Assembly (NCBI GenBank): GCA_024681195.1
Contig: JAILBH010000023.1
Location: forward strand, 1 to 36,872
Direction of reading: 5' to 3'
Length of the DNA: 36,872 nt
DNA from: Treponema sp.
GTDB taxonomy: Bacteria > Spirochaetota > Spirochaetia > Treponematales > Treponemataceae
Below the pieces are notes generated by a model that searched no databases, had not been told where the DNA came from, and saw only the letters and a list, made by a program, of their open reading frames with translations. Shown one piece after another: positions 5,963-34,638 of the stretch. Position numbers and translations under genes: made by a program. How positions within the stretch are numbered: position 1 is the first letter of the stretch; every line of letters starts with the position of its first letter.

Positions 5963-6277
5963 ATGATGCTCGTATCTATTGATTCAATTCCGGGAAAAAA
6001 TTTTGAAGCACTCGGATTAGTAAAGGGAACTATTGTTCAGTCAAAAAACTTTGGACGTGATTTTATGGCAAGCCTTAAGACTTTAGTTGGTGGAGAAATT
6101 GCCGGCTATACAGAAATGCTCAACGAAGCACGCCAGATTGCTACAAAGCGTATGGTAGACGAAGCAGAAGCTCTTGGAGCAGATGCAGTAGTTGGAGTAC
6201 GCTACGGCTCTTCTGCAGTAATGCAGGGTGCTGCCGAAGTTGTTGCATACGGAACTGCCGTAAAATTTAAGGCTTAA
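5963..6277 (+). CDS. YbjQ/UPF0145-family protein
   Basis: 104 residues covering the whole YbjQ (UPF0145) domain: GLVKGTIVQSKNFGRDFMAS, LVGGEIAGYTEMLNEARQIA, then the signature EALGADAVVGVRYGSS and the closing EVVAYGTAVKF. It is a small cytoplasmic protein thought to form pentamers; its function is unknown. AAGGAGG lies close upstream; the start is at 5963 or at the next ATG, 5966. It is co-directional with the membrane MerR gene and probably in its operon. YbjQ proteins often accompany membrane-stress genes, which suits the neighbouring nfeD-SPFH unit. Its TAA overlaps the convergent uxaC TAA within the shared bases TTAA. Confidence 0.9.
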   Translation: MMLVSIDSIPGKNFEALGLVKGTIVQSKNFGRDFMASLKTLVGGEIAGYTEMLNEARQIATKRMVDEAEALGADAVVGVRYGSSAVMQGAAEVVAYGTAVKFKA

Positions 6278-9353: not shown

Positions 9354-9371
9354 ATTTTGCCTCTGTCTAGT

Positions 9372-9400
9372 ATTCTAGCATATTAGTTGCGGAAAATCAA
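9372..9400 (-). promoter_or_regulatory. Strong promoter of uxuB-uxaC
   Basis: Minus-strand TTGATT (9400-9395), a 17-nt spacer, and TAGAAT (9377-9372) preceded by TG, so an extended -10. Transcription should start about 10-12 nt before the uxuB ATG, with the GAGG ribosome-binding site inside that short leader. An inverted repeat, CTAG-TATT-CTAG (9367-9378), covers the -10 and start region and could be a repressor site. Confidence 0.6.
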
Positions 9401-9414
9401 ATATAAGATAATTA

Positions 9415-10842
9415 TTAAAATTTTTCTTCTGATAAAAGTTCAGAAAGATAAAAGAGTATTGCGCATTCATTTTCCTGCCAGATTCTTAAGCTGCGTTTTA
9501 CAGCACAAACAAGGTAGCCTTTGGTCTTACTGCCCTTTTGAATACGCGAAATTAAAACAGTTTCAAAGCCGTTTTGGGTAAGACTTTTATAAAATATAGG
9601 GGAGCGTTTTTTAACAAGATCCAGAGTGCTTTCGGCATACAAGTCTTCATCCATTAAATTAGCAATATCCGAAGCTTCTGCACTAAAGGCTTTTTCGAGC
9701 ACAGACTTCATCTTGCCTTTTGAATTAACATAATACAAATCCTGAATCTGAAGCACTTCAATAATCTGCGGCATTGCTTTTAAAATCTTATTTTCAAAGC
9801 CGCGTTCTTTTTCTACATCAAGCTTAAGCTTATGCATGTTTGTAAAAATGCCGTTCTTAGCAATTTTGTGAATCTCAATATCCCGATGCCTTTTTTCATC
9901 ATAAATTGAATAACAATTGCGGCCTTTATTTTTTCCAAGATAAAGCATCTTATCAACTATTCCAAAAAGCTCTGCAAAATCATCTGAGTCCTTTGGAAAC
10001 GATGCACAACCTGTAGTACCTGTAACAAAAGAAGCTCCGTTTTCAAAATAAACTTCTTTTCTTAAGGCATTTGAATTTCCATACAGATTTTCAAAAAAGA
10101 AAAGTTTTTGTGCATCAGAATTATTAACCAGATCAATCAGTAAAAATTCATCACCGCCGAATCTTCCAACAAGTCCAGAATTTTTAGAAAAATCTACAAG
10201 TCCCCTGGCAACACTTGTTAAAACCTTGTCGCCGGCACTGTGACCATAGCTGTCGTTTATGAACTTAAAATTATCAAGATCAATTATAGAAAAAGTAAAT
10301 GGAATTTTTTCTGCAATAAGAGAACGCACATATCGTATTGAATAGGAACGGTTTAATATTCCTGTAAGAGGATCCAGAATTTCTTCAAGACTTATTTCGT
10401 CAATTATTTTATCAAAAAAGCTGTATTTTCTAAGATCTTCAATTGTATACAAAACCTGATTATCGCTGTTGTTTTTTCTGCGGATTACATCGGTAATATC
10501 AACAAAGCTGCCAACAAGCCCAACAATCTCATCACCCTTATATAATGGGCGTTTGGATGCAATAATATCCCGCTCTTCACCACGAATAAAACATTTACCT
10601 TGAACCTTGTATGTGCTTTTGCCAGACAATACCCTAAGTTCATCCTGTTTAAAAGGTTCAGGATCAGAATGCCAGCCCATATCCTCATCATTTTTGCCTA
10701 TGAGAACATCTGCTGAATCGAAATTGTAAAAATCCAGAAAGGCCTGATTTACGCCAACAAAGCGTCTGTCTTTATCTTTCCAAAAGACACAATCTTGAGA
10801 AGTATTAATAATGCTGTCAAACAATTCGGCCGTCATCTTCAT
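9415..10842 (-). CDS. PAS-GGDEF-(GAF-like) diguanylate cyclase
   Basis: 475 residues with no transmembrane segment, so cytoplasmic. A PAS domain (about 5-120: DCVFWKDKDRRFVGVNQAF, then the VGSFVDITDVIRRK exit) leads into a GGDEF domain (about 155-320). That domain has DPLTGILNR, the metal-binding IIDLDNFKFINDSYGHSAGD, and an intact active-site GRFGGDEFLL at 227-235. It should make cyclic di-GMP from GTP. The inhibitory RxxD motif is replaced by KNSG, so product feedback is probably missing. The C-terminal ~135 residues look like a GAF-type sensor (MPQIIEVLQIQDLYYVNSKG, GYLVCAVKR); this part is tentative. It sits between uxuA and uxuB in the same direction but has its own promoter. Confidence 0.9.
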   Translation of the reverse strand: MKMTAELFDSIINTSQDCVFWKDKDRRFVGVNQAFLDFYNFDSADVLIGKNDEDMGWHSDPEPFKQDELRVLSGKSTYKVQGKCFIRGEERDIIASKRPLYKGDEIVGLVGSFVDITDVIRRKNNSDNQVLYTIEDLRKYSFFDKIIDEISLEEILDPLTGILNRSYSIRYVRSLIAEKIPFTFSIIDLDNFKFINDSYGHSAGDKVLTSVARGLVDFSKNSGLVGRFGGDEFLLIDLVNNSDAQKLFFFENLYGNSNALRKEVYFENGASFVTGTTGCASFPKDSDDFAELFGIVDKMLYLGKNKGRNCYSIYDEKRHRDIEIHKIAKNGIFTNMHKLKLDVEKERGFENKILKAMPQIIEVLQIQDLYYVNSKGKMKSVLEKAFSAEASDIANLMDEDLYAESTLDLVKKRSPIFYKSLTQNGFETVLISRIQKGSKTKGYLVCAVKRSLRIWQENECAILFYLSELLSEEKF

Positions 10843-10872
10843 AATTGCAAACCCTTAGTAAATAATACTACA

Positions 10873-10901
10873 ATTATAAATGATACAAAATAGATGGGCA
10901 A
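10873..10901 (-). promoter_or_regulatory. Sigma70-type promoter of the GGDEF gene
   Basis: Minus-strand TTGCCC (10901-10896), a 17-nt spacer and a consensus TATAAT (10878-10873), about 30 nt before the ATG at 10842, with an AAGGG ribosome-binding site between. It separates transcription of the cyclase from the uxuA gene ending at 10930. Confidence 0.6.
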
Positions 10902-10929
10902 GTTATTTTTTTGACAGCAGAATTATAGT

Positions 10930-12036
10930 TTATCGATACAATTTTACAGAGCTTCGATCTATAGTCTTTTCGCAGGCTTCCCAAAGTCCCTGAAGATAAG
11001 TCGCACCAAGAGCCCGGTCATAAAGTCCATAGCCAGGCATTGCCTTTTCGCCCCAGATCATTCGACCGTGGTCTGGACGGATAATTCCATCAAAGCCTGT
11101 TTCGTAAAGAGTTTTTACAATCTTGAACATGTCAAAGGTTCCGGCAGCAGACAGGTGTGCAGATTCCTGGAAATCCTGAACAGGATCATCAATTGCAGTA
11201 TTAAATTTAAGATTACGGATATGGGCAAAGTGAATGCGTCCGCTTGCAGCCTTAATCATTGAACAAAGGTCATTCTTGCGGTTGGTTCCGTAAGAGCCTG
11301 TACAGAAGGTTAAACCATTGTGAGGATTATCCACAGCCTTGAGCATGCGTACAACATTTTCCTGGCAGGTGATAATGCGTGGAAGTCCGAATACAGGCCA
11401 GGCAGGATCATCCGGATGAATGGCCATGTCGATGTTGTATTTATCGCAGACAGGCATAATTGCCTTTAAGAAATATACAAGATTGTTGAAGAGCTTTTCG
11501 TTATCAATGCCGCTGTACATCTGAAAAAGTTCTTTTACACGTGCCATACGCTCAGGTTCCCAGCCAGGCAGAATAAAGCCATTGGAATCCTTGTCGATTG
11601 AATTGAACATGTCCTCTGGTTTTACGCCGTCAATTGCTTTTGAGTTGTAAGCAAGAACAGTAGAACCATCTTCGCAGACACGGGCAAGCTCACTACGTGT
11701 CCAGTCAAAAACAGGCATAAAGTTATAGCAAACCATATGGATGTCTTCCTGTCCAAGGCGCTCGAGCGTTTTTATATAGTTTTCGATGTATTTATCGCGG
11801 TCACCGCCACCAATTTTGATGTCATCGTGAATATTTACACTTTCAATACCGGCAATCTTAAGTCCGGCGGCTTCAACTTCCTTTTTGATTTTTTGAATTG
11901 CAGCCAGCTCCCATGCGTCACCCGGAACCGAATCATACAAGGTTGTAATAACCCCATGAACCCCCGGCACCTGCCTGATCTGCTGCAAAGTTACTGAATC
12001 AAAGCCGGTTCCATACCATCGAAGTGTCATTTCCAT
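10930..12036 (-). CDS. uxuA: Mannonate dehydratase
   Basis: 368 residues from the ATG at 12036. It dehydrates D-mannonate to 2-keto-3-deoxygluconate in the cytoplasm. The N-terminus MEMTLRWYGTGFDSVTLQQI is typical of UxuA. Other landmarks are GVITTLYDSVPGDAW, MVCYNFMPVFDWTR, MAIHPDDPAWPVFGLPRI, LTFCTGSYGTN, HFAHIRNLK and IRPDHGRMIWGE, which include the metal-binding Cys and His residues. An in-frame TTG start nine codons earlier (12063) is possible but unlikely: AAGGAG at 12046-12051 lies 9 nt before the ATG. Two candidate promoters lie upstream (12079-12107 and 12124-12151). It is transcribed in the same direction as uxuB-uxaC, but separately. Confidence 0.96.
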   Translation of the reverse strand: MEMTLRWYGTGFDSVTLQQIRQVPGVHGVITTLYDSVPGDAWELAAIQKIKKEVEAAGLKIAGIESVNIHDDIKIGGGDRDKYIENYIKTLERLGQEDIHMVCYNFMPVFDWTRSELARVCEDGSTVLAYNSKAIDGVKPEDMFNSIDKDSNGFILPGWEPERMARVKELFQMYSGIDNEKLFNNLVYFLKAIMPVCDKYNIDMAIHPDDPAWPVFGLPRIITCQENVVRMLKAVDNPHNGLTFCTGSYGTNRKNDLCSMIKAASGRIHFAHIRNLKFNTAIDDPVQDFQESAHLSAAGTFDMFKIVKTLYETGFDGIIRPDHGRMIWGEKAMPGYGLYDRALGATYLQGLWEACEKTIDRSSVKLYR

Positions 12037-12078
12037 AGCAAAAATCTCCTTAAAGAAAGCCAATAAATCGTTTTATTA

Positions 12079-12237: not shown

Positions 12238-13137
12238 ATGTCAACAAAAATTGCACCACCAGGTTTCACAAACGAAACATATGACCGTCTGTTTAAGGCA
12301 ATTTTCGGACGGGAAAACCCACAAAGCAAACAGTGGCGTCTGGAACTATACAATGCGCTTCGGGGGACAAATTACAAAGACCCTGATAAGCTGGAAATTA
12401 ACACAATTGAAAATGTCATATATCTTACAATGCGAAATGATATTTCTTTTCTTGTTGATTCACAAATGACTTTATTTGAACAGCAATCAACATATAATCC
12501 GAATATGCCATTGCGTGGTTTTATGTATTTTTCTCAATTATATCAAATACATATAACAAAAACAGGAAAATCCTTACATCATTCTTCTCTGGTTAAAATT
12601 CCATATCCCAAATTCATAGTCTTTTATAATGGCAACAAAGAAACCCCTGACAGAGAATATCTTAAATTATCAGATGCCTTTGAGAATAAAGAAAAAGACG
12701 GCGATTTTGAATGGACTGCAGAATTAATTAATATAAATCCAAACCACAACAAAACACTTCAAAAAAATTGTAAACCGTTGTATCATTATGTTAAATACGT
12801 TGCGAGAATAAAACATAATAAGCAGAAAGGATTGCCGCCCCAGGCTGCGATTTCAGAAGCTGTAGATTGGGCAATAAAGAAAAAACTGCTGAATGGATTT
12901 TTCAAGCTCCAGAAAGAGGAGGTTTTAGCCATGAGTCTGACAGAATTTAACGCAGAAGAAGTAACACGCGAATTCATAGAAGAAGGACGTGAAATGGGTC
13001 GTGATGAAAAAGCTCTTGAAGATGCAGAAAATCTTTTAAAATTGAATAAACTTACAGAAGACGAAATAGCCCAGGCTATAGGCATACCTCTTGATCAGGT
13101 ATTAAAATTGAAAGAGAAAATAACTGTCCTTGCGTAA
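12238..13137 (+). CDS. Rpn / PD-(D/E)XK nuclease-family (transposase-like) protein
   Basis: 299 residues. The N-terminal ~230 resemble the PD-(D/E)XK nuclease transposase / Rpn (recombination-promoting nuclease) family that is amplified in gut bacteria. The start is TNETYDRLFKAIFG, the putative active-site segment is MRNDISFLVDSQMTLFEQQS (Asp68, then Glu81-x-Gln83), and the family hallmark YNPNMPLRGFMYFSQLY follows. The C-terminal tail (about 240-299) is charged and helical, with EFIEEGREMGRDEKALEDAE and a short HTH-like end (LTEDEIAQAIGIPLDQVLKL), as in relatives. AGGAG 5 nt before the ATG fixes the start. No terminal repeats or partner genes were seen, so its mobility is unproven. It is flanked by unusually AT-rich DNA (12140-12237). 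Confidence 0.85.
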   Translation: MSTKIAPPGFTNETYDRLFKAIFGRENPQSKQWRLELYNALRGTNYKDPDKLEINTIENVIYLTMRNDISFLVDSQMTLFEQQSTYNPNMPLRGFMYFSQLYQIHITKTGKSLHHSSLVKIPYPKFIVFYNGNKETPDREYLKLSDAFENKEKDGDFEWTAELININPNHNKTLQKNCKPLYHYVKYVARIKHNKQKGLPPQAAISEAVDWAIKKKLLNGFFKLQKEEVLAMSLTEFNAEEVTREFIEEGREMGRDEKALEDAENLLKLNKLTEDEIAQAIGIPLDQVLKLKEKITVLA

Positions 13138-13158: not shown

Positions 13159-14229
13159 TTAACGTTTTTCGATAGTGTATTCGAAGGAAGCTCTAGCTGC
13201 GGATGCAGATGCTTCGAACCGCCAGTTACTCAACTGGTCATAAATTTCGTTTCGTACGTCCTCAGGTAGAAGAGATTCTGGAGATATTTGTACCTGAGCA
13301 CGCGGAACATTTCCAGAAGGTAAAACCTGAAACTCTATTGTTACAGTTTTTGTAGTGTCAATTTTAGCTGCTGCTGCTTCACTAAGTTCGATTACAGGCG
13401 GAACAGGAGTTATAAGAACTCTTGTTGAACCGTCTTTCATAGCCATACTCAAGGTACCGTCTTCCCCTTTTGTTGTTTTTGCCTCGGTAATTGATTTTGT
13501 ATTTGAACCGCTTGAAGTTGAATATGTTGTATTTCTGATATTACTTAAGGCTGAATTTGTTGCAGAACTTGCCGACTGCTGAGTTGAAGTTGTTCTTGAT
13601 GACTGACTTTTCTGTGTCTGAGTTTTATCTGAACTTGTACTTGCTGCCGAGCCCGAAATTGATGATGAATTTTCTACCTTTGTTACCTGTTTGCTAACCT
13701 GTGAAGCTGGTTCAGAAGGTTCATCAAACTGTGACCAGTCAAAAGACTGTTTCTTGTTTGAAACATTATTAAAATCTACACCCTGTGATAAATCTGTTGC
13801 ATACTGATAATCATCAAAATTTACTTTTTTGGAAGGATCAGTTGTTTTTGAAGAAGCAGGCTGCGGCTTTGCAGGCTGTGTTTTAGCTGGAGCGGGGGCC
13901 GCCTGTTTAGCTGGCGCTGTTGGTTTTGCCTGGGCAACAGGAGTTTCAACTGGATTTGGAATTTCTGGCACTTCGACAGGCTCAGAGACCGCGGCCACCT
14001 CTTCTGCACTCATTGCAGCCACAGATTCTTCTGTCTTAGTCTTTTCCTCTACAGGCGTAGAATCCAGGACAATCTGCACTTCTTTGTATTTTGGAGTTGG
14101 AGACGGGAGCTTTACAAAAACACCGGTGAGCGTTAAAACAAGCCAGATAAACACAGTTATGAGGCCGCCCATAAAGGAGCTTGTTTTATGAGGAGAACTG
14201 TCTTGTCCAAACAAAGGCTGCTTTATCAT
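13159..14229 (-). CDS. TonB-like energy transducer
   Basis: 356 residues with the TonB/TolA layout. A cytoplasmic stub is followed by one transmembrane helix (about 21-40, GGLITVFIWLVLTLTGVFVK). Then comes a Pro/Ala/Lys-rich region (about 85-135) and a Ser/Thr/Gln-rich low-complexity stretch (about 170-245) that together could span the periplasm. The small C-terminal domain (about 275-356) resembles the TonB C-terminus: VTIEFQVLPSGNVPRAQV, then a helix, then LSNWRFEAS and a final strand. It would carry ExbB/ExbD motor force to an outer-membrane partner. It starts 10 nt after exbD. The partner may be the barrel encoded two genes before exbD (15314-16957) rather than a classical TonB-dependent receptor; none is present here. 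Confidence 0.82.
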   Translation of the reverse strand: MIKQPLFGQDSSPHKTSSFMGGLITVFIWLVLTLTGVFVKLPSPTPKYKEVQIVLDSTPVEEKTKTEESVAAMSAEEVAAVSEPVEVPEIPNPVETPVAQAKPTAPAKQAAPAPAKTQPAKPQPASSKTTDPSKKVNFDDYQYATDLSQGVDFNNVSNKKQSFDWSQFDEPSEPASQVSKQVTKVENSSSISGSAASTSSDKTQTQKSQSSRTTSTQQSASSATNSALSNIRNTTYSTSSGSNTKSITEAKTTKGEDGTLSMAMKDGSTRVLITPVPPVIELSEAAAAKIDTTKTVTIEFQVLPSGNVPRAQVQISPESLLPEDVRNEIYDQLSNWRFEASASAARASFEYTIEKR

Positions 14230-14239
14230 AAATAATACC

Positions 14240-14659
14240 CTACTCGCCCTTTTCTGTTGCTGTGCGAAGGTTTATTACGGCGTAACCGCTTTCTCGAATT
14301 ACATCAAAAATCTTGACTACGGTACCGTTGGTAACTTCGGAATCTGCTTCTAAAGAAACAGGAAAGTCTTCTTTTTTTACATCACCTGTATCGTAAGCAA
14401 TAAGCTCGGTCCCAAGCTCTTCAAAGGCAACTTCTTTTTCATTAAAGAAAAGAAGTCCATCTGCATCGGCGGTGATTGTAATACCCTTGTAAGAAGTTCC
14501 TTCCGAAGTATGACTTGAAGGAAGCTTTAGCTTTATTCCCGGCAAAATTGCAAAGGTTGTAGAAACCAGAAAAAAGAGAATGAGCTGAAAAACTATATCA
14601 ATCATCGGGGTCATATCTACATTTGAACGGATACTTCCCCTCTTGCTTCTTAATCTCAT
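14240..14659 (-). CDS. exbD: ExbD/TolR-family motor protein
   Basis: 139 residues. A basic cytoplasmic start (MRLRSKRGSIRSN) leads into DMTPMIDIVFQLILFFLVST. This is the ExbD/TolR transmembrane helix with the proton-carrying aspartate at Asp21. The periplasmic remainder has the family's small alpha/beta fold (LKLPSSHTSEG, ITITADADGLLFFNEKEV, VSLEADSEVTNGTVVKIFDV, GYAVINLRTAT). With ExbB it forms the proton-driven inner-membrane motor. Spacing of 8 nt from exbB and 10 nt to the tonB-like gene indicates one operon. ExbD and TolR cannot be told apart with certainty from sequence. Confidence 0.93.
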   Translation of the reverse strand: MRLRSKRGSIRSNVDMTPMIDIVFQLILFFLVSTTFAILPGIKLKLPSSHTSEGTSYKGITITADADGLLFFNEKEVAFEELGTELIAYDTGDVKKEDFPVSLEADSEVTNGTVVKIFDVIRESGYAVINLRTATEKGE

Positions 14660-14667
14660 TTTATCCC

Positions 14668-15279
14668 CTATCTTACGCGGCCTGTTAATTTAAGAACAAC
14701 GGAAGTTACATGCGCTTCCATCTCTACAATTCTGCGGTTTACACGCGAAACAAAGTAATTATGAAAAATTACTGATGGAATTGAAACAATCAAACCGGCT
14801 ACTGTTGTCACCAGGGCTTCGGCAATGGCACCTGCAAGCAAAGCAGGATCTCCCCTTGACCCACCGGCTCCAAGTACACCAAAAGCCTTGATATTACCGG
14901 TTACAGTTCCTAAAAGCCCAAGCAGGGTTGCAATGTTTGCAATTGTTCCAAGCGGAGTTAAGAAATGCTCAAAGCGTGGAACTACAAAATCCATTTCGGC
15001 TTCTACAAGGTCACGGATATCGCGTTCTTCGTAGCGGCGGCAATCTATGGCCTTTTTAATTACCTGAGACATTGGAGTGTCGGCCTGGGCACAAGCAACT
15101 CCACAGGCTTCAAAGTCGCCTACAGCCAATGATGCATTTACATTCTGCATGAGCTTTTCATCGCGCTTACGGATGCTTGCAAAATAAATGCAGCGTTCAA
15201 CTATAATAAAGGTTGCAATGATTCCGCAAAGAATAATTGGAATCATCAAAAAACCACCAGATTTTAATGTCTCTATCAT
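14668..15279 (-). CDS. exbB: ExbB/TolQ/MotA-family proton channel
   Basis: 203 residues with three membrane helices (about 10-32, 112-134 and 152-175). The second and third carry the family signature TLLGLLGTVTGNIKAFG, then DPALLAGAIAEALVTTVAGL and IVSIPSVIFHNYF. The length suits ExbB/TolQ. It forms a pentameric channel around the ExbD dimer and converts proton flow into motion. GGAGGA upstream supports the start. It follows the outer-membrane barrel gene by 34 nt and precedes exbD by 8 nt. Confidence 0.94.
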   Translation of the reverse strand: MIETLKSGGFLMIPIILCGIIATFIIVERCIYFASIRKRDEKLMQNVNASLAVGDFEACGVACAQADTPMSQVIKKAIDCRRYEERDIRDLVEAEMDFVVPRFEHFLTPLGTIANIATLLGLLGTVTGNIKAFGVLGAGGSRGDPALLAGAIAEALVTTVAGLIVSIPSVIFHNYFVSRVNRRIVEMEAHVTSVVLKLTGRVR

Positions 15280-15313
15280 TTAGATCCTCCAGATATATAT
15301 TGGTAAACTATCA

Positions 15314-16957
15314 TTAAAACAAGAATTGAACAAGAAGCATTGCATTTCCTGTACAGGCTGCATACTGGCCGGCAAAAAGCCGTTCTTCTGCACCCAAAAG
15401 CTTAATCATATCATTTACGCTTAATACAATGCGTACGGCAGAAGAAGCCTGAATATAACCTTCCAGATTGATTAATGGCTTGTTGTCTTTTGCATCAAGA
15501 AGGTAAGAAGTATCAAGAGAAGCGCCCCAAAGTCCCTTCTGGCTCTGCAATGAGAAGCTTACCGAGAAGGTGTGTTTATTCTGCAAAACCGGTACATCTA
15601 TCCAGTTTGCGTGATAAGCTGCTGTTGCTGCAAAAAGCTTATACTTCCAGGTAAAAGAAAAATCTGTATAAAACTCAAGATTATTTTTTGGAGAAAAACC
15701 ATACAATCCACTTGTAAGTGACTGAGGTGTATAATCAGGTGTCCACATTCCGTTTCCAAAAGCTGTATTAGAATAGCCGGCTGAAACATTACCGGTAAAA
15801 GAAGCCTTGAGTGGAACCAAAAGCTTTAACTGACCAAACCAGTTAGAAGACTCAGTAGAAAATTCTTTGAGCCCCGAAAAATTATAAAGCCGTTCCAGCT
15901 CCGAAGTTGTATAACGCTTTGACTTAAGTCCTCCGGTCAAAGAAAGATTAAGCTTTCTGTCAGAAAAATAAACCGGAAGGACCGCATCAAGTCCAACAGT
16001 AAAAGGAGGAATTACCTTATTGTCTCCAATATAGTTTCCAAAAACTACACCTGCATCTGCATAAACTTTGAGCTTATCATTTTTCCAGGCAAAATTAATT
16101 CCAGCCTGACCGCGGTTTGTTACCTTATCCCAGGCTTCCATATTGTAAAGAGCTGCAAAACCAACATTAAAACCATTGTGTTCCCACGAAAGCTTAAGCT
16201 CAGGATCAACGGTTACCCTGGATGTATTTATTATCCATTCAGGAACATTAAAATCTTCTGTTGTATTTTTTGTGATATCTGCAAAACGATAATAAAACTC
16301 TGAATCAATAATAAAGTCCAGTTTAAAGTCCTGGGCAAAATTCCAGGCAAGGGCGGCCTGTCCCGAAACCGCATCCTGATTATTTGCCGCAACGCCTTCT
16401 ACCTTTGTCTGAAACCCGTTACCAATATCTTCATATTTTCCCGAAAGCTTAAAATCAAGATTTGAACGTATAAATTCTTTCTGAAGTTCTATTGCTGTAT
16501 TTTTTGTACTGTAGCCGTCTGCAAGATTATGTCCTGCAAAACCAGAAGCAGAATAGTGATCAAAAGAAATACTAAAAGGATCTGCACCAATAATTCTTGA
16601 AACTTCAAAATTGCCGGAAAAAGAAGCCGGATATCCGCCACCCATCTGGCCCGAAGCATAGATATCTTTTTCATCAGAAGTTGCAGCTGCAGCGGCAACT
16701 TCTCCATCTGCATTTACAGAAACTGCAGGCAGAACCGGAACCAGGTCTCCGGAACTAAAATTATAATCGAGTACGTCTTCAAACTCTGGAGCCGGAGCTG
16801 TTTCTTCGTCCCCTCCATCTGAGCTTACAACTGTAGTCAAATCCGGAAGCTCAATCTGTGAGCTCTGCGATTCCTGTGAGCTTTGAGAAAATCCGTTTGA
16901 ACATAAGAGCAGAATTATCAATGCACAGGCTGTTTTAATCAAAAAATGCTTTTTCAT
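15314..16957 (-). CDS. Predicted outer-membrane beta-barrel protein
   Basis: 547 residues. A Sec signal peptide (residues 1-25, ending SNGFSQ) is followed by a Ser/Gln-rich linker. About 400 residues of alternating strands come next, each of 9-12 residues with aromatic girdles, e.g. LKVYADAGVVFGNYIG, FSLQSQKGLWGASLDTSYLL and KLNLSLTGGLKSKRY. The final residues, MLLVQFLF, end in phenylalanine with alternating hydrophobics, the usual BAM recognition signal of barrels. I do not recognise a named family. It shows no TonB plug domain, so it does not look like a classical receptor. Its place between the TPR gene and exbB suggests it is the outer-membrane end of that machine. Confidence 0.72.
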   Translation of the reverse strand: MKKHFLIKTACALIILLLCSNGFSQSSQESQSSQIELPDLTTVVSSDGGDEETAPAPEFEDVLDYNFSSGDLVPVLPAVSVNADGEVAAAAATSDEKDIYASGQMGGGYPASFSGNFEVSRIIGADPFSISFDHYSASGFAGHNLADGYSTKNTAIELQKEFIRSNLDFKLSGKYEDIGNGFQTKVEGVAANNQDAVSGQAALAWNFAQDFKLDFIIDSEFYYRFADITKNTTEDFNVPEWIINTSRVTVDPELKLSWEHNGFNVGFAALYNMEAWDKVTNRGQAGINFAWKNDKLKVYADAGVVFGNYIGDNKVIPPFTVGLDAVLPVYFSDRKLNLSLTGGLKSKRYTTSELERLYNFSGLKEFSTESSNWFGQLKLLVPLKASFTGNVSAGYSNTAFGNGMWTPDYTPQSLTSGLYGFSPKNNLEFYTDFSFTWKYKLFAATAAYHANWIDVPVLQNKHTFSVSFSLQSQKGLWGASLDTSYLLDAKDNKPLINLEGYIQASSAVRIVLSVNDMIKLLGAEERLFAGQYAACTGNAMLLVQFLF

Positions 16958-16973
16958 ATTTTCTCCACCATCC

Positions 16974-19751
16974 CTATTTCAAAAGATTCATAACCTTCTT
17001 GCCCTGTTTAGTATCAGGATAAAGCTCTACAAGAAGGTTTGCAGTAACGCGGGCATCTCCAGTCATTCCCGCAGCAACAAATGCATCTACAGCAGAATAA
17101 AGTACAGAAGCAGCGTTATCAGCATTCCCTGCCCCACCAGCTCTATAGTATTCTGCAGCTTTTAAATAATATTCTGCTGCCTGCTGATTCTGTCCTCTGT
17201 CGTGATAATAAACAGCAACACATTCAGCATTCTGTGCAGCAAAGGTCATTTCATCTGAGTCCTTCTGATAATTCAAAAGTTCTTTTGCAAGCTCAAAAGC
17301 TTCCTTTTGATTACCCTTCTGGATATAAAGCTGAACAAGCTCGGAACCTGTATTGCGTCCCTTTTTGGTAGAGGTTTTTCCGTTTCTTTCATAAGCTGTA
17401 GTTTTTTCTACAATTGTACGGTCGTCTCCACCAACAATTCTTTCCAGCTCCACAATGCGCTGTCCCATTCCATCGGACTCTGCCTGGCTTTTAAATTTTT
17501 GAACCAGCAGCCTTGCAGTAATGAGGGCGTTTGTGTAATCTTCCTGAGCATAATATGCCTGCAAAAGATTTTTATAAGCACCATAAGAATAAATACTGTC
17601 CGGATATTTGGAAACAAGAGTATTGTTCTGCATAATTGCCGGATCATATTTCTGGAGCTTCATATTACAGTCACCGCTAAAATAATAAGCTGCATCTGAA
17701 TACTTTCCGTTTACAAAACTGTAAATATAATTTGTAAAGTGGCTTTCGGCCTCTGCATACTTTCCGGCAGAATAATAGACCTCACCGCTGCGGTAAGAAG
17801 CATCTTCGGCAGCCTGAGTTCCTGCAAAGCGTTTTACAATTGTCTGATAAGTCTGATCTGCGTTATTAAGGTCGCCCTTCTTTTCGTAAATCTTTGCCGA
17901 AGTCATAAGACATTGAAGTGCAAAATCATCAGTGTCTTTTGTATAAATAGAAAGCAGCTTAAGTGCGCTGTCATAGTCTTTATTATCACTGTAAATTTCG
18001 GCACAGTAAATGATGGAGCTTTGCTGCTGCTGTGGAGTCATTGCAGCGCTGATCATTCCCTGAGCCATAACCGCAGCCTTTTGAATCTGAGAAGTCATGA
18101 GCGCAGACTTAGCCGCATATTCATAGGCACGGTAGCGGAAAGAATCGCGTTCTGTATAAGTTTTTGCGTAATCAGAAAAGACCACATATGAATCATTGTA
18201 GGCTGCCGTTTTATAAAGACTTAAGCCCCTGTAAAAGACAGCAGTCTTTGATTTTGGATATTGCTTAAGATAATTTGCAGCAGTTGAATAGCTTCCAAGA
18301 TTAAAGTCACAGAGCCCCGCAATATATGCAGAAAGATTATGCTTTACAGAAAGTGCTTCAGTCTTTGCTTCCTGCCATTTTTTGAGCCGGTACAAAACCT
18401 TGGCATATTCAATTCTTTCGTCGGAACTAAGCGCCTTCTTTTTATTAAGCTTTTCATATTCCGTGGCAGCCTGGCTATAGTTTCCGTTTTTTGCAAGAAG
18501 TGAAGCATAAAGCTTTGCGCAATCTGTATCCTTTGAAAAAGGCGCAACAATTGTTTCTGCAAGGGCTGCATCTGTTTTAGAAAGCAGATACCCCGCAGTA
18601 TAAGCATCTCCAGCACCAGGTGCTTTAATCTTCTGATACAATTCATAAATCTCAAAAGCCGCAGCTTTGTCCACCGTTAAAGCCTTTGCGCCAGCCAGTT
18701 CAAAAGCCCGGCAGTGCAGCAGCAAAGAGTTATATGAATCTAACGCGCCTTCCAAAGTTGAATTTTCAAAGCGCTCCTGATTTTGTAAGAGCAGCTCCCG
18801 TACTCCGGCTGCAGCGGAAGTTCCTTTTGTGTCCAAAGCTATTTTTTGCTCGTAAATAAATACGGCGAGCAGAATGTCTTCGTTCTGGGATTGGGAGGCC
18901 AGTTTAAAATATGAAGAGGCGGATGCATAGTCTTTTTTGGAATAGGCGGCGACGCCAAGATTCAGGCGGAATTCTGCAAGCATTTCCTTAAATTCAGGAT
19001 TGTCATTGCTGTTCAAAACCGCATAAGCTTTTTCTACCTGACCTTTTTTTTCATAAGCATCGGCTGCATAAATTGCAAGCGCACAATAAACCTTGTCCGA
19101 AAACCTTTCCTTTGGCAAATCAGAAAAAAGCTTTATTGTCTTATCAAACTGGCTTGTACTGTTGTAAGAAAAACAAAGCTTTTGAATTATTTCGTCATAT
19201 TCATCCTGAGTATAGTTTGTTCCATTTTGAACAACATATTCCAAAAGTGGAATTGCCTTATCATACTGTTCCATAAAAAAGTAGATACGACCGGAATAGA
19301 AAATGGAAGGATAATAAAATTCCTTTTTGTTTTCCTTATTCTCTACCTCGCAGGCTGTATGAAAAGCATTAAGTGCGCTGATATAATCCTTATCGTAGTA
19401 ATTAGCGCGGCCAAGATAATACCAGCATTTTGCATAAGCTTCGTTTCCAATATGAATAGACGAAAGAACTTTTGCAAGGGTTTCTTCTGCCATTTCATAG
19501 CGGTTTAAAATTATAAGCGCATTTGCTTTTTCTATACGGGCAGAAACAATAAATACAGACTGAGGATAAAGCTTTTCCAAAAGCTCAGTCTGTTCAATTA
19601 CACCAGGATAATATTTTGCATTAGAAAAAATATTAATTTCGTTGTAAATATCCAGTTCAGAAGGCCCCGAAGCCTGTGCAAAAGCAGCAGAGCCGCCAAA
19701 GAAGGTCAAAGCCATCAGAAAAGAAAAGATAAAAATCGATTTATTTTTCAT
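16974..19751 (-). CDS. Secreted/periplasmic TPR-repeat protein
   Basis: 925 residues. Signal peptide (1-25, cleavage near SAAFAQA) and then TPR/Sel1-like helical pairs over almost the whole length, e.g. AEETLAKVLSSIHIGNEAYA, YYLGRANYYDKDYISALNAF, YEQYDKAIPLLEY-type units. From about residue 600 the repeats resemble the CpoB/YbgF and BamD style (YQTIVKRFAGTQAAEDASYR, SGEVYYSAGKYAEAESHF, NTLVSKYPDSIYSYGAYKNL). It is probably a periplasmic scaffold or adaptor. In Tol-Pal loci a TPR protein, CpoB, has a comparable place. The start lacks a ribosome-binding site; a 13-bp dyad, AGTAAA-T-TTTACT (19755-19767), lies right before it. A short overlapping frame from an ATG at about 19772 could couple translation, but this is speculative. 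Confidence 0.85.
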   Translation of the reverse strand: MKNKSIFIFSFLMALTFFGGSAAFAQASGPSELDIYNEINIFSNAKYYPGVIEQTELLEKLYPQSVFIVSARIEKANALIILNRYEMAEETLAKVLSSIHIGNEAYAKCWYYLGRANYYDKDYISALNAFHTACEVENKENKKEFYYPSIFYSGRIYFFMEQYDKAIPLLEYVVQNGTNYTQDEYDEIIQKLCFSYNSTSQFDKTIKLFSDLPKERFSDKVYCALAIYAADAYEKKGQVEKAYAVLNSNDNPEFKEMLAEFRLNLGVAAYSKKDYASASSYFKLASQSQNEDILLAVFIYEQKIALDTKGTSAAAGVRELLLQNQERFENSTLEGALDSYNSLLLHCRAFELAGAKALTVDKAAAFEIYELYQKIKAPGAGDAYTAGYLLSKTDAALAETIVAPFSKDTDCAKLYASLLAKNGNYSQAATEYEKLNKKKALSSDERIEYAKVLYRLKKWQEAKTEALSVKHNLSAYIAGLCDFNLGSYSTAANYLKQYPKSKTAVFYRGLSLYKTAAYNDSYVVFSDYAKTYTERDSFRYRAYEYAAKSALMTSQIQKAAVMAQGMISAAMTPQQQQSSIIYCAEIYSDNKDYDSALKLLSIYTKDTDDFALQCLMTSAKIYEKKGDLNNADQTYQTIVKRFAGTQAAEDASYRSGEVYYSAGKYAEAESHFTNYIYSFVNGKYSDAAYYFSGDCNMKLQKYDPAIMQNNTLVSKYPDSIYSYGAYKNLLQAYYAQEDYTNALITARLLVQKFKSQAESDGMGQRIVELERIVGGDDRTIVEKTTAYERNGKTSTKKGRNTGSELVQLYIQKGNQKEAFELAKELLNYQKDSDEMTFAAQNAECVAVYYHDRGQNQQAAEYYLKAAEYYRAGGAGNADNAASVLYSAVDAFVAAGMTGDARVTANLLVELYPDTKQGKKVMNLLK

Positions 19752-19783
19752 GACAGTAAATTTTACTAAACCTCATCGCTTAA

Positions 19784-21148
19784 TTAATCCGGGAAAAATC
19801 TGTCGCTAGCCCTTGCTCTTGTAAGATATACAAAATCTCCGGCATAAAGATTACAAAAATCTTCGAGCGAAACCGACCTTCCATTCATAAAAACAAAGCA
19901 ACCAAAGGATTTGTTACTAAAATATGGGAAAAATGCGACACAATCATTGAATACCTTAACCTCTGGAGATACGGTTTTGTCGGTCTCGCGGATTGCACCA
20001 AAATAGAAATTTCCGGGTTCTGTTGCAGCAAGAATATAAAGCAGAGACTTTAAGCCTTCTGCATCGTAGCCGGAATCTTCTATAAAAGTAACTGTATTTT
20101 TAGTTCCTGCTCCGTTAATTGCCGCAGCAAATGGATTTACAGTTACATCTACACCAGAATCTTTATACAGATAAACCTTACCTGTATTTACCGAAACTAT
20201 TGCCGAAGCAACGTTACGAATCCAGTTCAAAGAAAAGAACAGATTATATTTTTGCGAAAGAACACCCTGGTAGCCGTTTTCTTTAAGACTTACAGTTTCT
20301 ACCAGCAAAGGAGCTCTGTTCAATTTACTGCCTGCAACAGGTTCTACAAGTCCGTCGGCAATCCATTTAATAAAGCCTGCAGAAGAAAGATACAACTTTG
20401 AAGGATCAATATCTCCCTTAGTAAATGGTTTGCCGCTTATAACCTGAACAAGCTCGTTGTTTTCATCATAAATTGCATCCGGCACATACATAATTTTTCC
20501 AAGATTTTTCTGGATCATGCCGGCCATCTGTAAAACACTGCCGTATTTATCATCATCAACAGTTACATACTTCCACGGAAGAGAAACAGCTGTCAAATTA
20601 AGAATATCTTCAAAAGAAAGTGAATAAAGAGCTTCGAACGAAACTCCGGTTGGAGCACCCTTTGCCGCATAATTTCCAAAAATAATCATATCTGCAAGAG
20701 AGCTTTTTCCATAAGGAGTAAACTGAACGTACACATCGCTGTTTGTAGAAAAATACCAGCGGATACGGATTGGAGAACCGGTCTTTTTATCGCAGATTAA
20801 AACCCAGCTGCCAGGAGCATCCCCCGGATAAATTTCCTGCTGTTCGTTATTTACACCAAGGCTCGAATAAACCTTTACATTTATAACTGCACATGGAGCA
20901 ACATAAATCATATATGTAGAATCTGATTCTTCCAAACGAACCTGAAACTTCTGTCCGGCATTATTATCATAAATTTCGGGAAGATTCATGCGCACTGCTT
21001 CAAGCGAAGCATCAAACCAGCGCTCCTTTAAAGTTTTACGAATTTCTGACGAATCCGGGATTCCCCATGAATTATAAGCTGCAAAAACTGGAGCAACAAA
21101 AGTCAGTAAAATAAAACTACAAAGAATTGTTCTGTTCAGTTTCTTCAT
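19784..21148 (-). CDS. Secreted protein of unknown function
   Basis: 454 residues from the ATG at 21148. This start is preferred over an in-frame GTG three codons earlier because GGTGA lies 5 nt before the ATG and matches the anti-Shine-Dalgarno sequence. A signal peptide (about 1-24, ending APVFAA) indicates export. The mature protein is mixed alpha/beta, with strands such as YMIYVAPCAVINVKVYSS and SWVLICDKKTGSPIRIRWYF. I do not recognise a family. It has one pair of cysteines far apart and no lipobox. It lies between the giant activase (10 nt gap) and the periplasmic TPR gene (32 nt gap), so it may be part of the envelope machine. No function is assigned. Confidence 0.75.
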   Translation of the reverse strand: MKKLNRTILCSFILLTFVAPVFAAYNSWGIPDSSEIRKTLKERWFDASLEAVRMNLPEIYDNNAGQKFQVRLEESDSTYMIYVAPCAVINVKVYSSLGVNNEQQEIYPGDAPGSWVLICDKKTGSPIRIRWYFSTNSDVYVQFTPYGKSSLADMIIFGNYAAKGAPTGVSFEALYSLSFEDILNLTAVSLPWKYVTVDDDKYGSVLQMAGMIQKNLGKIMYVPDAIYDENNELVQVISGKPFTKGDIDPSKLYLSSAGFIKWIADGLVEPVAGSKLNRAPLLVETVSLKENGYQGVLSQKYNLFFSLNWIRNVASAIVSVNTGKVYLYKDSGVDVTVNPFAAAINGAGTKNTVTFIEDSGYDAEGLKSLLYILAATEPGNFYFGAIRETDKTVSPEVKVFNDCVAFFPYFSNKSFGCFVFMNGRSVSLEDFCNLYAGDFVYLTRARASDRFFPD

Positions 21149-21158
21149 TTTTCTCACC

Positions 21159-24100
21159 TTATTCGGCAGGATCTACATCGGTAGCACCCTCTGCCCTGCT
21201 GATTTCGCCCTTTACAAGAGTTCCATCACTTAATTTTATCATACCTTCTGCATTTTCGTCAGGATGTTTTCCAACAGGCGCATTCGAAAGCAGAAGCTTA
21301 AGTCTGTTAAGCTGATTTACCTCTGAACTGCCCGGATCATAATCAATTGCACTGATATTTGCATCCGGGAATCTTCTTCTAAGCTCCTTAATCATACCCT
21401 TGCCGGTAACATGGTTTGGAAGACATGCAAACGGCTGTACACAGGCAATACTTGGAGCTCCCTGATGAATGAGCTCAACCATCTCGGCAGTCAGGAACCA
21501 GCCTTCACCAGTTTGATTACCAAGCTGTACTATATCATCGACACCTTTCATCAAATCATAAATAGATGAAGGGGCTTCAAAACGTTTACTCTGCTTAAGA
21601 TAAAGCTTCATCTGCTTGCGGTAAAGCTCCAGCGCCCAGATAAGCATTCTTGCGCGGCGTTCTTTCTTTTTAGAAAGCTTAAGATCTTTATGACGGATAA
21701 TATCAACCGAGAATGAATAGAAGAAAAAGTCTGCAAGATCCGGCATTACACATTCTGCACCTTCTTTTTCTATTGTATCTACAATATGATTGTTTGCCGT
21801 AGGATGGAACTTAACAAGGATTTCTCCTACAACACCAACACGAGGCTTTTTAATTGGCTTAAGCGGAAGTCTGTCAAAATCCCGTACAATTCCTTTTAAA
21901 AGCTTGTGATAACCTACCCAGCCGGCCTGATTTTTAAAGAGCTTTTCGGCCCTTGCATTCCATTTTTCATAAAGCTGATTAGCGCTTCCAGAAACAGCTT
22001 CATAAGGACGAACTCTGTAAAGAACTCTCATAAAGAGGTCGCCGACCATTACTGATTTTACAAGCTTATCAATAAGTGTAACTGTAAGCTTAAAGCCAGG
22101 GTTTGTTTCAAGACCAAGTGCGCTAAGACTGATTACAGGAATATGTCCCCAGCCTGCATCATTCAGAGCACGGCGTATAAATCCAATATAGTTTGTAGCA
22201 CGACAGCCGCCACCGGTTTGAGAAATCAAAAGACTCACGTGATTCAAATCGTACTTACCGCTTTCCAAAGCTGCCATCATCTGGCCTACAACCATAATAG
22301 AAGGATAGCAGGCGTCATTGTTTACAAAACGCAATCCGGCATCTACAGCCTTAGGATCTACTGCTTCCAGAACTACAAAATTATAGCCGGCAGATTCAAA
22401 GGCTTTTTTAAGAAGGCGGAAATGAATTGGCGACATTTGAGGAGCGATGATTGTATGTGTATACTTCATCTCTTCTGTAAATATAACTCGTGAATAAGCA
22501 GATGTACGGAAGGTCTGTTTTACCTTATTACGGCGACGGGCCTTTACAGCTGCAATAAGCGAGCGGATACGGATTCGTACTGCACCAAGGTTACTTCCCT
22601 CATCAATCTTAATAAGAGTGTACATTCTGTTTTTAGCACGCAGAATTTCATCAACCTGATCTGCGGTTACGGCATCCAGTCCGCAGCCAAAAGATGTAAG
22701 CTGAACCAGCTCCAGCGAAGGCATTTCTGAAACAAACTGAGCAGCCCTGTAAAGTCGGTTATGATAAGTCCATTGGTCTACAATTCTGAGCGGACGCTCA
22801 ATTTTTCCAAGATGAGCGATTGAGTCTTCGGTAAATACAGCAAGACCAAGTCCGTGAATCATCTCCGGAATACCGTGATTAATTTCGGGATCAAGGTGAT
22901 AAGGTCGTCCAGCAAGAACAATACCGCTTCCGCCCTTTGTGATTACTTCTTCAAGAGCTTCTTCTCCTGCCTGCTGAATATCTATCTTAAATTTTTCCTG
23001 CTCTGCCCAGGCCTTATCTACAGCGTCAAAAATCTTTTCTTTTGTAAGCGTTGTAAACTTTGGCAAAAGCTCTTCGCAAAGTCGTTCAGCGAGTGCTTCT
23101 TTATCATAAATAGGCAGGAACGGATCCATAAAAAGAATAGACGGATCTTGTCTTAAAACTTCAATATTATTTCTAAGAACTTCCGGATAACTTGTTACAA
23201 TAGGACAGTTGTAGTGGTTTCCGGCTCCGGCGTCTTCAATTTTTTCATATGGTGCGCATGGATAAAATATAAATTTAATTCCACGCTGAAGAAGAGACTC
23301 TACATGTCCGTGGCTTATTTTTCCAGGATAGCAAACAGACTCTGACGGAATTGTTTCAAGACCTTTTTCGTAAACTTTGCGGCTTGAACGCTGACTCAAG
23401 ATTACGCGGAAGCCCAGCTCATTAAAGAAGGTAAACCACAGCGGATAATTTTCGTACATATTAAGTACACGAGGAATTCCTACATCACCAAGAGGTGCAT
23501 CTTCGGGTTTGCGTGGTACATAATGGAAAAGTCTCTTTGTCTTCCATTCAAAAAGATTTGGAAGCGGACCTGCATCATCATCATCAAGACCGGTATTAGT
23601 CTTATTGCTTGCATCCAGAATCTTGTGAGTTTTCTGATCTTCTATTTCTGCACCCTTTTCACAGCGGTTACCTGTAATAAAGGTTCGTTTTTCTGTACCT
23701 GTAGAGAAGGTATTGATTGTAAGCAGACAGTTATTCTGACACTTACCACAGCGGCGGAGCTCCAGATCTACATGGAAATTTTCCAGCTGTTCGAGTGTAG
23801 CAAGATGTGACCGCACATCATGAACAGTACCTTCCGGCTCTCCAGGCTGAGGCATCATCAAATCCTGCCACTGGTCACAGGCAATTAAGGCAGAACCGTA
23901 TGCCCCCATAAGCCCCGCAACATCAGGACGATAAACTTCTACACCGGCAATTTTTTCAAAAGCGCGGAGAATTGCATCATTAAAGAAAGTTCCACCCTGT
24001 ACAACAACCTTTGTACCAATATCACTTGCCTTGCGAAGCTTAATTACTTTGAACAGTGCGTTCTTAATTACAGAATAAGAAAGGCCGGCTGCAATGTCGG

Positions 24101-25673
24101 CAACAGATGCACCTTCCTTCTGAGCCTGCTTTACACGGCTGTTCATAAATACGGTACAACGGGAACCAAGATCAACAGGCTTTTGGGCCATAAGTGCAAT
24201 CTTACCAAATTCCTTTACATCCATTCCCATTGTATTTGCAAAGTTATCAAGGAAGGAACCACAACCCGAAGAACAGGCTTCGTTCAACTGGATTGAAACA
24301 ATTGCCCCATCCTTCATGCGAAGCGCCTTCATATCCTGACCGCCAATATCAAGCAGAAATTCTACGCCGGGAACAAAAAAGTTTGCAGCACGGAAATGTG
24401 TAATTGTTTCTACTTCACCGGAATCTACACCAAGAGCAGCCTGAAAAAGAGCTTCTCCATAACCTGTAGAAACGGCACGTGCAATATAAACATCTTTTGG
24501 AAGCTTTGCATATAAATCTTTTAAAACGCGGACTGCAAGCTCAACAGGATTTCCCTGATTATGAGCATAAAAGCTCCATAAAATTCGTCCATCCTTATCT
24601 ACAAGAACAGCTTTGGTTGTAGTAGAACCTGAATCCAGACCCAGGAAAACAGGGCCGTGTGTTTTTTCCAGGTCACCGCGTTTTGCCTTCTGCTCTGAAT
24701 GGCGAACTTCAAATTCATCAAGCTCTGCCTGGTTTTTAAACAATGGTTCCAGACGCTGAACTTCGCTAAGCTCGGCCCCTACAAGATTTTTGAGGCTGTC
24801 ACGGAACTGCTTTATTGTAGGAAATTCAAAGTCTTCTGCAATGCCGGAAAATTTGCGTTCTGCACTAAAAGCACAGCCGCTTGCAACAAAAAGCTGGGAA
24901 TCTTCGGGAACAATAACTTCCTCCGGCTTGAGCTTGAGAGTATCAATAAAACTCTGACGCAGCTGATCCAGAAAGTGCAGCGGACCACCAAGGAATGCAA
25001 CATTACCACGGATAGGTTTACCACAGGCAAGACCACTGATTGTCTGGCTTACAACTGCCTGAAAAATTGAAGCTGCAATATCTTCGCGGCGGGCACCTTC
25101 ATTAATAAGCGGCTGAATATCTGTTTTGGCAAAAACACCACAGCGGGCTGCAATAGGATAAATCTGTTTTGCACCCTTTGCAAGCTCATTAAGTCCCATT
25201 GCATCTGTTTCGAGCAATGCAGCCATCTGGTCAACAAATGCTCCGGTTCCTCCCGCACAGGTTCCATTCATTCGCTGCTCAACGCCGCCTTTAAAATATG
25301 TAATCTTGGCATCTTCACCACCAAGTTCAATTACTACGTCTGTCTGAGGAATAAGTTTTTTTACAGAAGTTGTAGCAGCAATAACTTCCTGAACAAAAGG
25401 AACATTAAGCCATTGAGAAACAGAAAGGCCACCTGAACCGGTAACCTTTACAGTTACAGTCTGTTCCTGACCTGCCGGACATTCCTTTTCCAGAAAATCA
25501 AGAGCTTTGTTTACAACTGTTATGATTGTATTACGAATATCTGCTCTATGACGCTGGTAGTCGCCATAGATTAATTTATCTTCATCGTTAAGGATTGCAA
25601 CCTTAACGGTTGTTGAGCCTATATCTATACCAATACGAATTGGGAGCGGAGTATTTCTTTCTGTAGATTCCAT
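21159..25673 (-). CDS. Giant 2-hydroxyacyl-CoA dehydratase activase-related protein
   Basis: 1504 residues from the ATG at 25673; an in-frame TTG at 25709 would add 12. Two BadF/HgdC-type ATPase domains lie in tandem. The first (about 12-275) has IGIDIGSTTVKVAIL, ELGGEDAKI and NGTCAGGTGAF with iron-sulfur Cys139. The second (about 343-600) has LGLDSGSTTTKAVLVD, DIGGQDMKAL and NEACSSGCGSF. A cysteine cluster, RCGKCQNNC (641-649) plus Cys671, follows. The C-terminal ~800 residues are HgdB-like, with further conserved cysteines (SVCYPGKISHGH, NNDACYPSIMVVGQ, TGGGCRATNYIG). Such COG1924/3580/3581 fusions are widespread in anaerobes; their substrate is unknown. No free-standing dehydratase subunits lie nearby. 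A 12-bp hairpin touches the start codon and no ribosome-binding site is visible. Confidence 0.88.
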   Translation of the reverse strand: MESTERNTPLPIRIGIDIGSTTVKVAILNDEDKLIYGDYQRHRADIRNTIITVVNKALDFLEKECPAGQEQTVTVKVTGSGGLSVSQWLNVPFVQEVIAATTSVKKLIPQTDVVIELGGEDAKITYFKGGVEQRMNGTCAGGTGAFVDQMAALLETDAMGLNELAKGAKQIYPIAARCGVFAKTDIQPLINEGARREDIAASIFQAVVSQTISGLACGKPIRGNVAFLGGPLHFLDQLRQSFIDTLKLKPEEVIVPEDSQLFVASGCAFSAERKFSGIAEDFEFPTIKQFRDSLKNLVGAELSEVQRLEPLFKNQAELDEFEVRHSEQKAKRGDLEKTHGPVFLGLDSGSTTTKAVLVDKDGRILWSFYAHNQGNPVELAVRVLKDLYAKLPKDVYIARAVSTGYGEALFQAALGVDSGEVETITHFRAANFFVPGVEFLLDIGGQDMKALRMKDGAIVSIQLNEACSSGCGSFLDNFANTMGMDVKEFGKIALMAQKPVDLGSRCTVFMNSRVKQAQKEGASVADIAAGLSYSVIKNALFKVIKLRKASDIGTKVVVQGGTFFNDAILRAFEKIAGVEVYRPDVAGLMGAYGSALIACDQWQDLMMPQPGEPEGTVHDVRSHLATLEQLENFHVDLELRRCGKCQNNCLLTINTFSTGTEKRTFITGNRCEKGAEIEDQKTHKILDASNKTNTGLDDDDAGPLPNLFEWKTKRLFHYVPRKPEDAPLGDVGIPRVLNMYENYPLWFTFFNELGFRVILSQRSSRKVYEKGLETIPSESVCYPGKISHGHVESLLQRGIKFIFYPCAPYEKIEDAGAGNHYNCPIVTSYPEVLRNNIEVLRQDPSILFMDPFLPIYDKEALAERLCEELLPKFTTLTKEKIFDAVDKAWAEQEKFKIDIQQAGEEALEEVITKGGSGIVLAGRPYHLDPEINHGIPEMIHGLGLAVFTEDSIAHLGKIERPLRIVDQWTYHNRLYRAAQFVSEMPSLELVQLTSFGCGLDAVTADQVDEILRAKNRMYTLIKIDEGSNLGAVRIRIRSLIAAVKARRRNKVKQTFRTSAYSRVIFTEEMKYTHTIIAPQMSPIHFRLLKKAFESAGYNFVVLEAVDPKAVDAGLRFVNNDACYPSIMVVGQMMAALESGKYDLNHVSLLISQTGGGCRATNYIGFIRRALNDAGWGHIPVISLSALGLETNPGFKLTVTLIDKLVKSVMVGDLFMRVLYRVRPYEAVSGSANQLYEKWNARAEKLFKNQAGWVGYHKLLKGIVRDFDRLPLKPIKKPRVGVVGEILVKFHPTANNHIVDTIEKEGAECVMPDLADFFFYSFSVDIIRHKDLKLSKKKERRARMLIWALELYRKQMKLYLKQSKRFEAPSSIYDLMKGVDDIVQLGNQTGEGWFLTAEMVELIHQGAPSIACVQPFACLPNHVTGKGMIKELRRRFPDANISAIDYDPGSSEVNQLNRLKLLLSNAPVGKHPDENAEGMIKLSDGTLVKGEISRAEGATDVDPAE

Positions 25674-25700
25674 ACCATATAATTTAACAATTATATGGTA
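25673..25700 (-). promoter_or_regulatory. 12-bp hairpin touching the activase start codon
   Basis: Plus-strand TACCATATAATT (25673-25684), loop TAAC, AATTATATGGTA (25689-25700): a perfect 12-bp stem. On the mRNA the 3' arm ends at the A of the AUG. No T-run follows, so it is not a canonical terminator. It also contains a TATAAT on the minus strand, though without a good -35. It may be a translation control, an RNase processing site or an operator. Confidence 0.55.
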
Positions 25701-25718
25701 AACTTTCAATCAAAAAGA

Positions 25719-34626: not shown

Positions 34627-34638
34627 ATTCTCCACTCC

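Follow-up and report, generated by a model that had tools for sequence, protein, structure and literature searches.

A Conserved Spirochaetota Gene Block Pairing an ExbB/ExbD/TonB-Type Trio with a Predicted Plugless Barrel and a Tetratricopeptide Repeat Protein

The defining feature of a TonB-dependent receptor is its plug, on which TonB pulls. What does a proton-channel pair with a TonB-like transducer act on when the outer membrane barrel encoded beside it appears to have no plug? The question is raised by a 36,872-nucleotide stretch of DNA (the window; contig JAILBH010000023.1, positions 1 to 36,872, forward strand, assembly GCA_024681195.1) from a 2.27-Mb rumen Treponema metagenome-assembled genome (MAG; 77% complete), whose nearest named relatives are likewise rumen Treponema MAGs. 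An original prediction, made from the letters alone, had placed a distinct trans-envelope machine of Treponema here. We report that five genes form a block conserved across Spirochaetota, and on balance we favor reading them as a proton-powered, TonB-coupled, envelope-spanning machine in which a plugless channel, gated by its own tail and/or by a tetratricopeptide repeat (TPR) protein, would carry out energized transport across the outer membrane.

The six minus-strand genes of the original prediction were all recovered as tightly spaced open reading frames (ORFs; intergenic gaps, 8 to 34 bp), in the order P457, TPR925, BARREL547, ExbB, ExbD, and TonB-like gene. By ascending coordinate, they are as follows.

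13159-14229, minus strand: TonB-like transducer, 356 amino acids (aa); one N-terminal membrane helix, a Pro/Ser/Lys-rich linker of about 200 residues, and a TonB_C-like end domain
14240-14659, minus strand: ExbD/TolR-type subunit, 139 aa; PF02472, E value of 1.8e-23
14668-15279, minus strand: ExbB/TolQ-type proton channel subunit, 203 aa; PF01618, E value of 1.2e-30
15314-16957, minus strand: BARREL547, 547 aa, last residue F; outer membrane barrel of the TonB-dependent-receptor type, predicted to be plugless
16826-16855, minus strand: N-terminal motif IELPDLTTVV of the barrel, codons 35 to 44
16974-19751, minus strand: TPR925, 925 aa; exported, with a type I signal peptide; first gene of the five-gene block
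19784-21157, minus strand: P457, 457 aa from a GTG start or 454 aa from an internal ATG; exported, with a predicted papain/NlpC-P60-like C-terminal domain

Neither BARREL547 nor P457 matched any Pfam or NCBIfam family, and sequence searches of both against the PDB gave nothing useful. An AlphaFold2 model built from a 37-sequence alignment (predicted local distance difference test [pLDDT] mostly >90 from residue 100 onward) had 22 strands (residues 100 to 546, with 244 to 260 taken as one strand). The 50 best Foldseek matches were without exception TonB-dependent receptors (E values down to 8e-14), and VIA-align against BtuB, Cir, FhuA, and PirA gave a Z score of about 20 and a root mean square deviation of 3.2 to 4.5 over roughly 370 to 415 aligned residues. 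Model residues 96 to 547 aligned to the receptors over their barrel part only (e.g., residues 134 to 594 of BtuB); between signal peptide and first strand lies a disordered periplasmic tail of about 75 residues (about 25 to 99). The plug domain (PF07715) had no Pfam match in the 37 members and was not seen in the model. As modeled, the barrel is a TonB-dependent-receptor fold of about 22 strands without a plug. The original prediction had proposed a barrel ending in phenylalanine and lacking a plug, and both points agree with these data; an ordinary plugged receptor was ruled out by length, Pfam, and model. Its separation of the system from TonB machines stands with regard to the missing plug, but the receptor fold of the barrel brings the machine closer to the Ton system than had been proposed. 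The extracellular loops are mostly short, with a mean conservation of 0.31 versus 0.24 for the periplasmic turns.

Conservation of the block was surveyed with profiles of the six proteins and with gene neighborhoods from about 100 genome stretches. Genomes, loci, and families are numbered G, L, and f, respectively, with G000 denoting the MAG of the window. The order TPR-barrel-ExbB-ExbD-TonB, on one strand, was found in 60 of the 62 loci with both barrel and ExbB, from 13 families across Spirochaetota, and the two exceptions were a contig edge and a locus without the TPR gene (L063). In 60 of the 62, likewise, the gene immediately upstream of the barrel was a TPR homologue. Because the order recurs in so many loci, chance is excluded, and the scattering of genes that would have spoken against the original prediction was not found; together with the barrel not being an ordinary plugged receptor, this supports a distinct trans-envelope machine. 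Its framing as specific to Treponema was too narrow, as the machine reaches many Spirochaetota families (barrel profile matches in 72 of 393 genomes, 35 genera). Within the order sample, the barrel was found in only 32 of 149 genomes, and that search found none in a 1.14-Mb genome or in the sampled g2 genomes.

The block appears to have been inherited mainly vertically, since f1 and f5 (and most smaller families) are monophyletic both in the ExbB+ExbD tree and in the barrel tree, and since pairwise distances of barrel and TPR protein are correlated (r = 0.94). In genomes beyond Treponema, the genes typically run Der GTPase, MerR, P457, the block, a HAD hydrolase, a long coiled-coil protein, and GrpE. 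At L081, L083, and L091, in genomes where barrel searches were negative, P457 is followed by the HAD gene (elsewhere found after TonB) across a gap of only 15 to 41 bp, which argues for loss or gain of all five genes together.

In most of 70 homologues, a motif of the form I-x-L-P-x-h-x-h-x-h lies at or near the N terminus of the mature barrel protein. In BARREL547, IELPDLTTVV starts ten residues past the likely signal peptide cleavage site. Conservation was 0.48 for the motif, 0.35 for the strands, and 0.25 for the remaining tail. The f1 version (DLTTVVTG or LTTVVTG) resembles a TonB box, whereas f5 and distant families have LPDV or LPEI without TTVV, unlike a TonB box. The three f36 loci (L185, L186, and L187), with TPR and barrel genes and no adjacent ExbB, ExbD, or TonB, keep the motif; it is missing from one f1 locus without a TPR gene (L063) and from two TPR-less f37 loci. 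This retention and loss tilt the sequence evidence weakly toward a role of the motif in docking the TPR protein. There are counter-cases, in that a TPR-less f35 locus keeps the motif and two f17 loci with a TPR gene have an altered version. L063 (7816-9336) is the sole f1 locus without the TPR gene; its barrel tail is shortened, its transducer is also short (249 aa), and its joint loss of gene and motif, a single case that may reflect one deletion, was given little weight. At L186 and L187, the TPR-barrel pair adjoins CdaA/YbbR-like genes.

Both subunits of the proton-channel pair pass their Pfam cut-offs, as the original prediction would have it, and their proton-path residues are conserved: the ExbB threonines of GTV and EAL..T correspond to those of TolQ/ExbB structures, and the ExbD membrane aspartate (TPMIDIV) aligns to that of Escherichia coli ExbD. 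The MAG yielded only two PF01618 genes (the ExbB of the block and a 260-aa MotA-like one) and no ExbD other than that of the block. The proposed TonB-like transducer was borne out by its C terminus, which as a profile matched the solved E. coli TonB C-terminal domain in the PDB (E value of 0.002); single-sequence matches were weak (NF033768, the AgmX/PglI C terminus, 5e-5, below cut-off; TIGR01352, 0.0065). TPR925, also as predicted, is an exported protein rich in TPR matches, consisting almost wholly of these repeats (TPR families, E values down to 1e-13), and by its sequence it is a TPR solenoid.

No plug domain was found in 12 genomes that carry the machine and reach a completeness of at least 93% (G056, G068, G123, G115, G135, G407, G092, G326, G362, G435, G448, and G365), and the four of them checked for ExbD (G056, G068, G123, and G326) had a single one each. 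The trio therefore has no classical receptor in these genomes and probably serves the plugless barrel. Barrel-less genomes whose ExbBD loci were read show other arrangements: in several from f1 and f5, a plugged receptor (677 or 680 to 684 aa) or a receptor-like protein of about 850 aa adjoins ExbBD, and in f3 and f4 the ExbB-ExbD-TonB trio has no adjoining TPR or barrel gene.

In the mechanism that we propose, the ExbB/ExbD motor would pull or swing the TonB-like arm, whose end domain would act at the outer membrane on the free tail of the barrel and/or on the TPR protein docked there. The part of a plug would be taken by the tail, with its motif, and/or by the TPR solenoid, forming a movable gate in a wide pore, and movement of this gate would let substrate cross the outer membrane in an energized way. 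We lean toward a cargo that is large or delivered from the periplasm (export or surface assembly) rather than import of a small ligand, given that the surface loops are mainly short and that the neighborhood holds no uptake genes. The fuller version, which we put forward more tentatively and slightly doubt, is a phylum-wide machine of new design, in which a proton-motive force (PMF) motor, together with a TonB-like arm, would act on a 22-strand channel that never has a plug; the tail of the channel and the TPR solenoid would serve as its gate, and its use would be energized transport, perhaps export.

Several points weigh against energized transport through a gated, plugless channel. An open pore of 22 strands should be harmful, so that a gate must exist, and none was seen; the evidence for the strand count and for the absent plug is one AlphaFold2 model and the protein length. 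In the transducer helix, Trp stands here (FIWLVL) in place of the His of S-x3-H, as in most Treponematales loci (some have neither), and motor coupling in this order may therefore be different; His is found at this position in most loci of other Spirochaetota families, as known for TonB and TolA (see also PMC12204202). Finally, the f36 genomes carry the TPR-barrel pair without an adjoining ExbB, and the same genomes hold other ExbDs.

How far could known systems account for the block? The Tol-Pal system (TolQ/R/A, TolB, Pal, and CpoB) shares a motor of the same superfamily, a transducer, and a TPR partner, and a stabilizing or constricting machine of this kind, with the barrel as an anchor replacing Pal/TolB, the TPR protein as CpoB, and the PMF pulling the outer membrane inward at division, is an unlikely but serious alternative. 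In its favor, TolQ is the best-scoring NCBIfam model for ExbB (76 bits), TPR925 scores against YbgF/CpoB (below cut-off), the block is widely conserved across the phylum, and TolB_N (PF04052) was absent from 17 of the 18 genomes searched, i.e., from G000 (77% complete) and from 16 of 17 others, with a single weak match in G266. The same absence rejects a canonical Tol-Pal system and accords with the lack of TolB in the original prediction. Neither TolB nor Pal adjoins the genes, the outer membrane partner in the block being the barrel; by Pfam, none of the six genes encodes Pal (OmpA domain), a genome-wide search for Pal not having been made. The block is also missing from many relatives, and one would not expect simple anchoring to call for a receptor-type barrel of 22 strands whose extracellular side is conserved. 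Constriction of the outer membrane, one of the two roles that the original prediction had floated, stays a guess. An ordinary TonB-dependent nutrient importer that lost its plug, the tail being a reduced plug and TonB box, would explain the barrel fold, the TonB-like partner, and the likeness of the f1 motif DLTTVVTG to a TonB box. Still less probable in our view, it fits poorly with the missing plug, with the mostly short surface loops, with the absence of ABC or binding-protein genes from the block and its recurring neighbors (Der, MerR, HAD, coiled coil, and GrpE), and with the motif in f5 and distant families; the fate of the motif in f36 and L063 favors TPR docking.

From the Ton system proper (ExbB/ExbD/TonB with BtuB, FhuA, or Cir), with which it has in common the motor pair, the TonB_C-like transducer end, and a receptor-type barrel of about 22 strands, the block differs in that its barrel has no plug, almost always has a long TPR protein as partner, and stands in one operon with its motor; its phylum-wide N-terminal motif is unlike a TonB box outside f1. 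A precedent for export by a TonB-powered receptor barrel is the Oar-ExbB/ExbD/TonB system of Myxococcus, which secretes PopC, but Oar is plugged, depends on its plug for normal function, and bears an N-terminal extension (PMC6434023). The Myxococcus Agl-Glt/Nfs machinery likewise joins an ExbB/TolQ-type PMF motor and a TonB-like transducer to TPR proteins and barrels (PMC3169522), and its AgmX/PglI (GltJ/GltG) model is the one matched below cut-off by our end domain. A cousin that moves surface material along the cell is nonetheless highly improbable: only the general parts list is common, the barrels, lipoproteins, and extra subunits of Glt are absent, the gene order does not match, no FHA domain (present in GltG) was found in our transducer by Pfam, and our barrel matches TonB-dependent receptors instead. 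Bacteria of the Planctomycetes-Verrucomicrobia-Chlamydiae (PVC) group have another uncharacterized PMF motor (TolQ/TolR-like) linked to a TPR gene; it uses a vWA transducer, and the portion of PMC12204202 available describes no receptor-type barrel. Motor and transducer are of known Ton/Tol kinds, and we know of no earlier description of a plugless barrel with such a TPR partner; no account of such a cluster was found in open-license PMC text, which is weak evidence of absence. If the proposed machine is real, a natural, vertically inherited plugless receptor with its own motor would show barrel and TonB action without a plug, and it would be a candidate core envelope machine for spirochetes, in which TolB is almost absent from the genomes searched.

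The original prediction had counted five or six genes in the cluster, of which five hold together; the sixth, P457, is a neighbor often present without the machine. It was found in 125 of the 149 order genomes (including the 1.14-Mb genome), compared with 32 for the barrel, and is probably a syntenic neighbor and not an obligate machine part; this distribution, with the loci where it adjoins HAD and the machine is missing, led us to reject it as a core part. In its model (pLDDT of 92.6), residues of about 205 to 454 best matched 2im9 (DUF1460; Z score of 8.8), followed by SpvD (6.4) and phytochelatin synthase (4.8), with AvrPphB also matched; Foldseek alone gave no match with an E value below 0.1. 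The predicted fold of this C-terminal half is papain/NlpC-P60-like, shared with DUF1460 proteins, from which P457 differs in an extra N-terminal beta domain and in lost active-site residues. It has SSAGF and NDC where most relatives outside f1, distant ones included, carry NCSGF and HxH with the Cys and His, and f1 members mostly lack both; here it is likely a pseudoenzyme.

Two recurring neighbors were considered as machine parts and rejected: the HAD and long coiled-coil genes persist where the machine is lacking, and in the window they do not adjoin it. P518-like matches downstream of TonB elsewhere were also dismissed, reflecting coiled-coil similarity only, the gene being that of the long coiled-coil protein. 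Many families have a long unannotated protein near the block (L172, 2630-6019; L167, 12998-16327; L049, 12556-16317); the coiled-coil neighbors read are about 1,100 to 1,800 aa with one N-terminal membrane helix, and that of L049 has a helix-turn-helix-like end.

Directly upstream of P457, the window encodes a 1,516-aa coenzyme A (CoA)-enzyme activase (21159-25709, minus strand; BcrAD_BadFG and DUF2229), constant at this place in most f1 loci; several other families have Der/MerR instead. On the other side, the interval from the TonB-like gene to the D-mannonate dehydratase gene holds a 299-aa ORF (12238-13137, plus strand) without a Pfam match, presumably an Rpn-type nuclease/transposase, and a similar ORF is found at L186 (3-707). 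Hexuronate genes follow (6274-12063, minus strand), with UxaC at 6274-7710, a mannitol/fructuronate-type dehydrogenase at 7707-9353, and UxuA at 10930-12063, among which a PAS-GGDEF protein (9415-10842) is inserted. A second TPR protein in the window (31837-34635, minus strand; 932 aa) is positionally unrelated to the machine.
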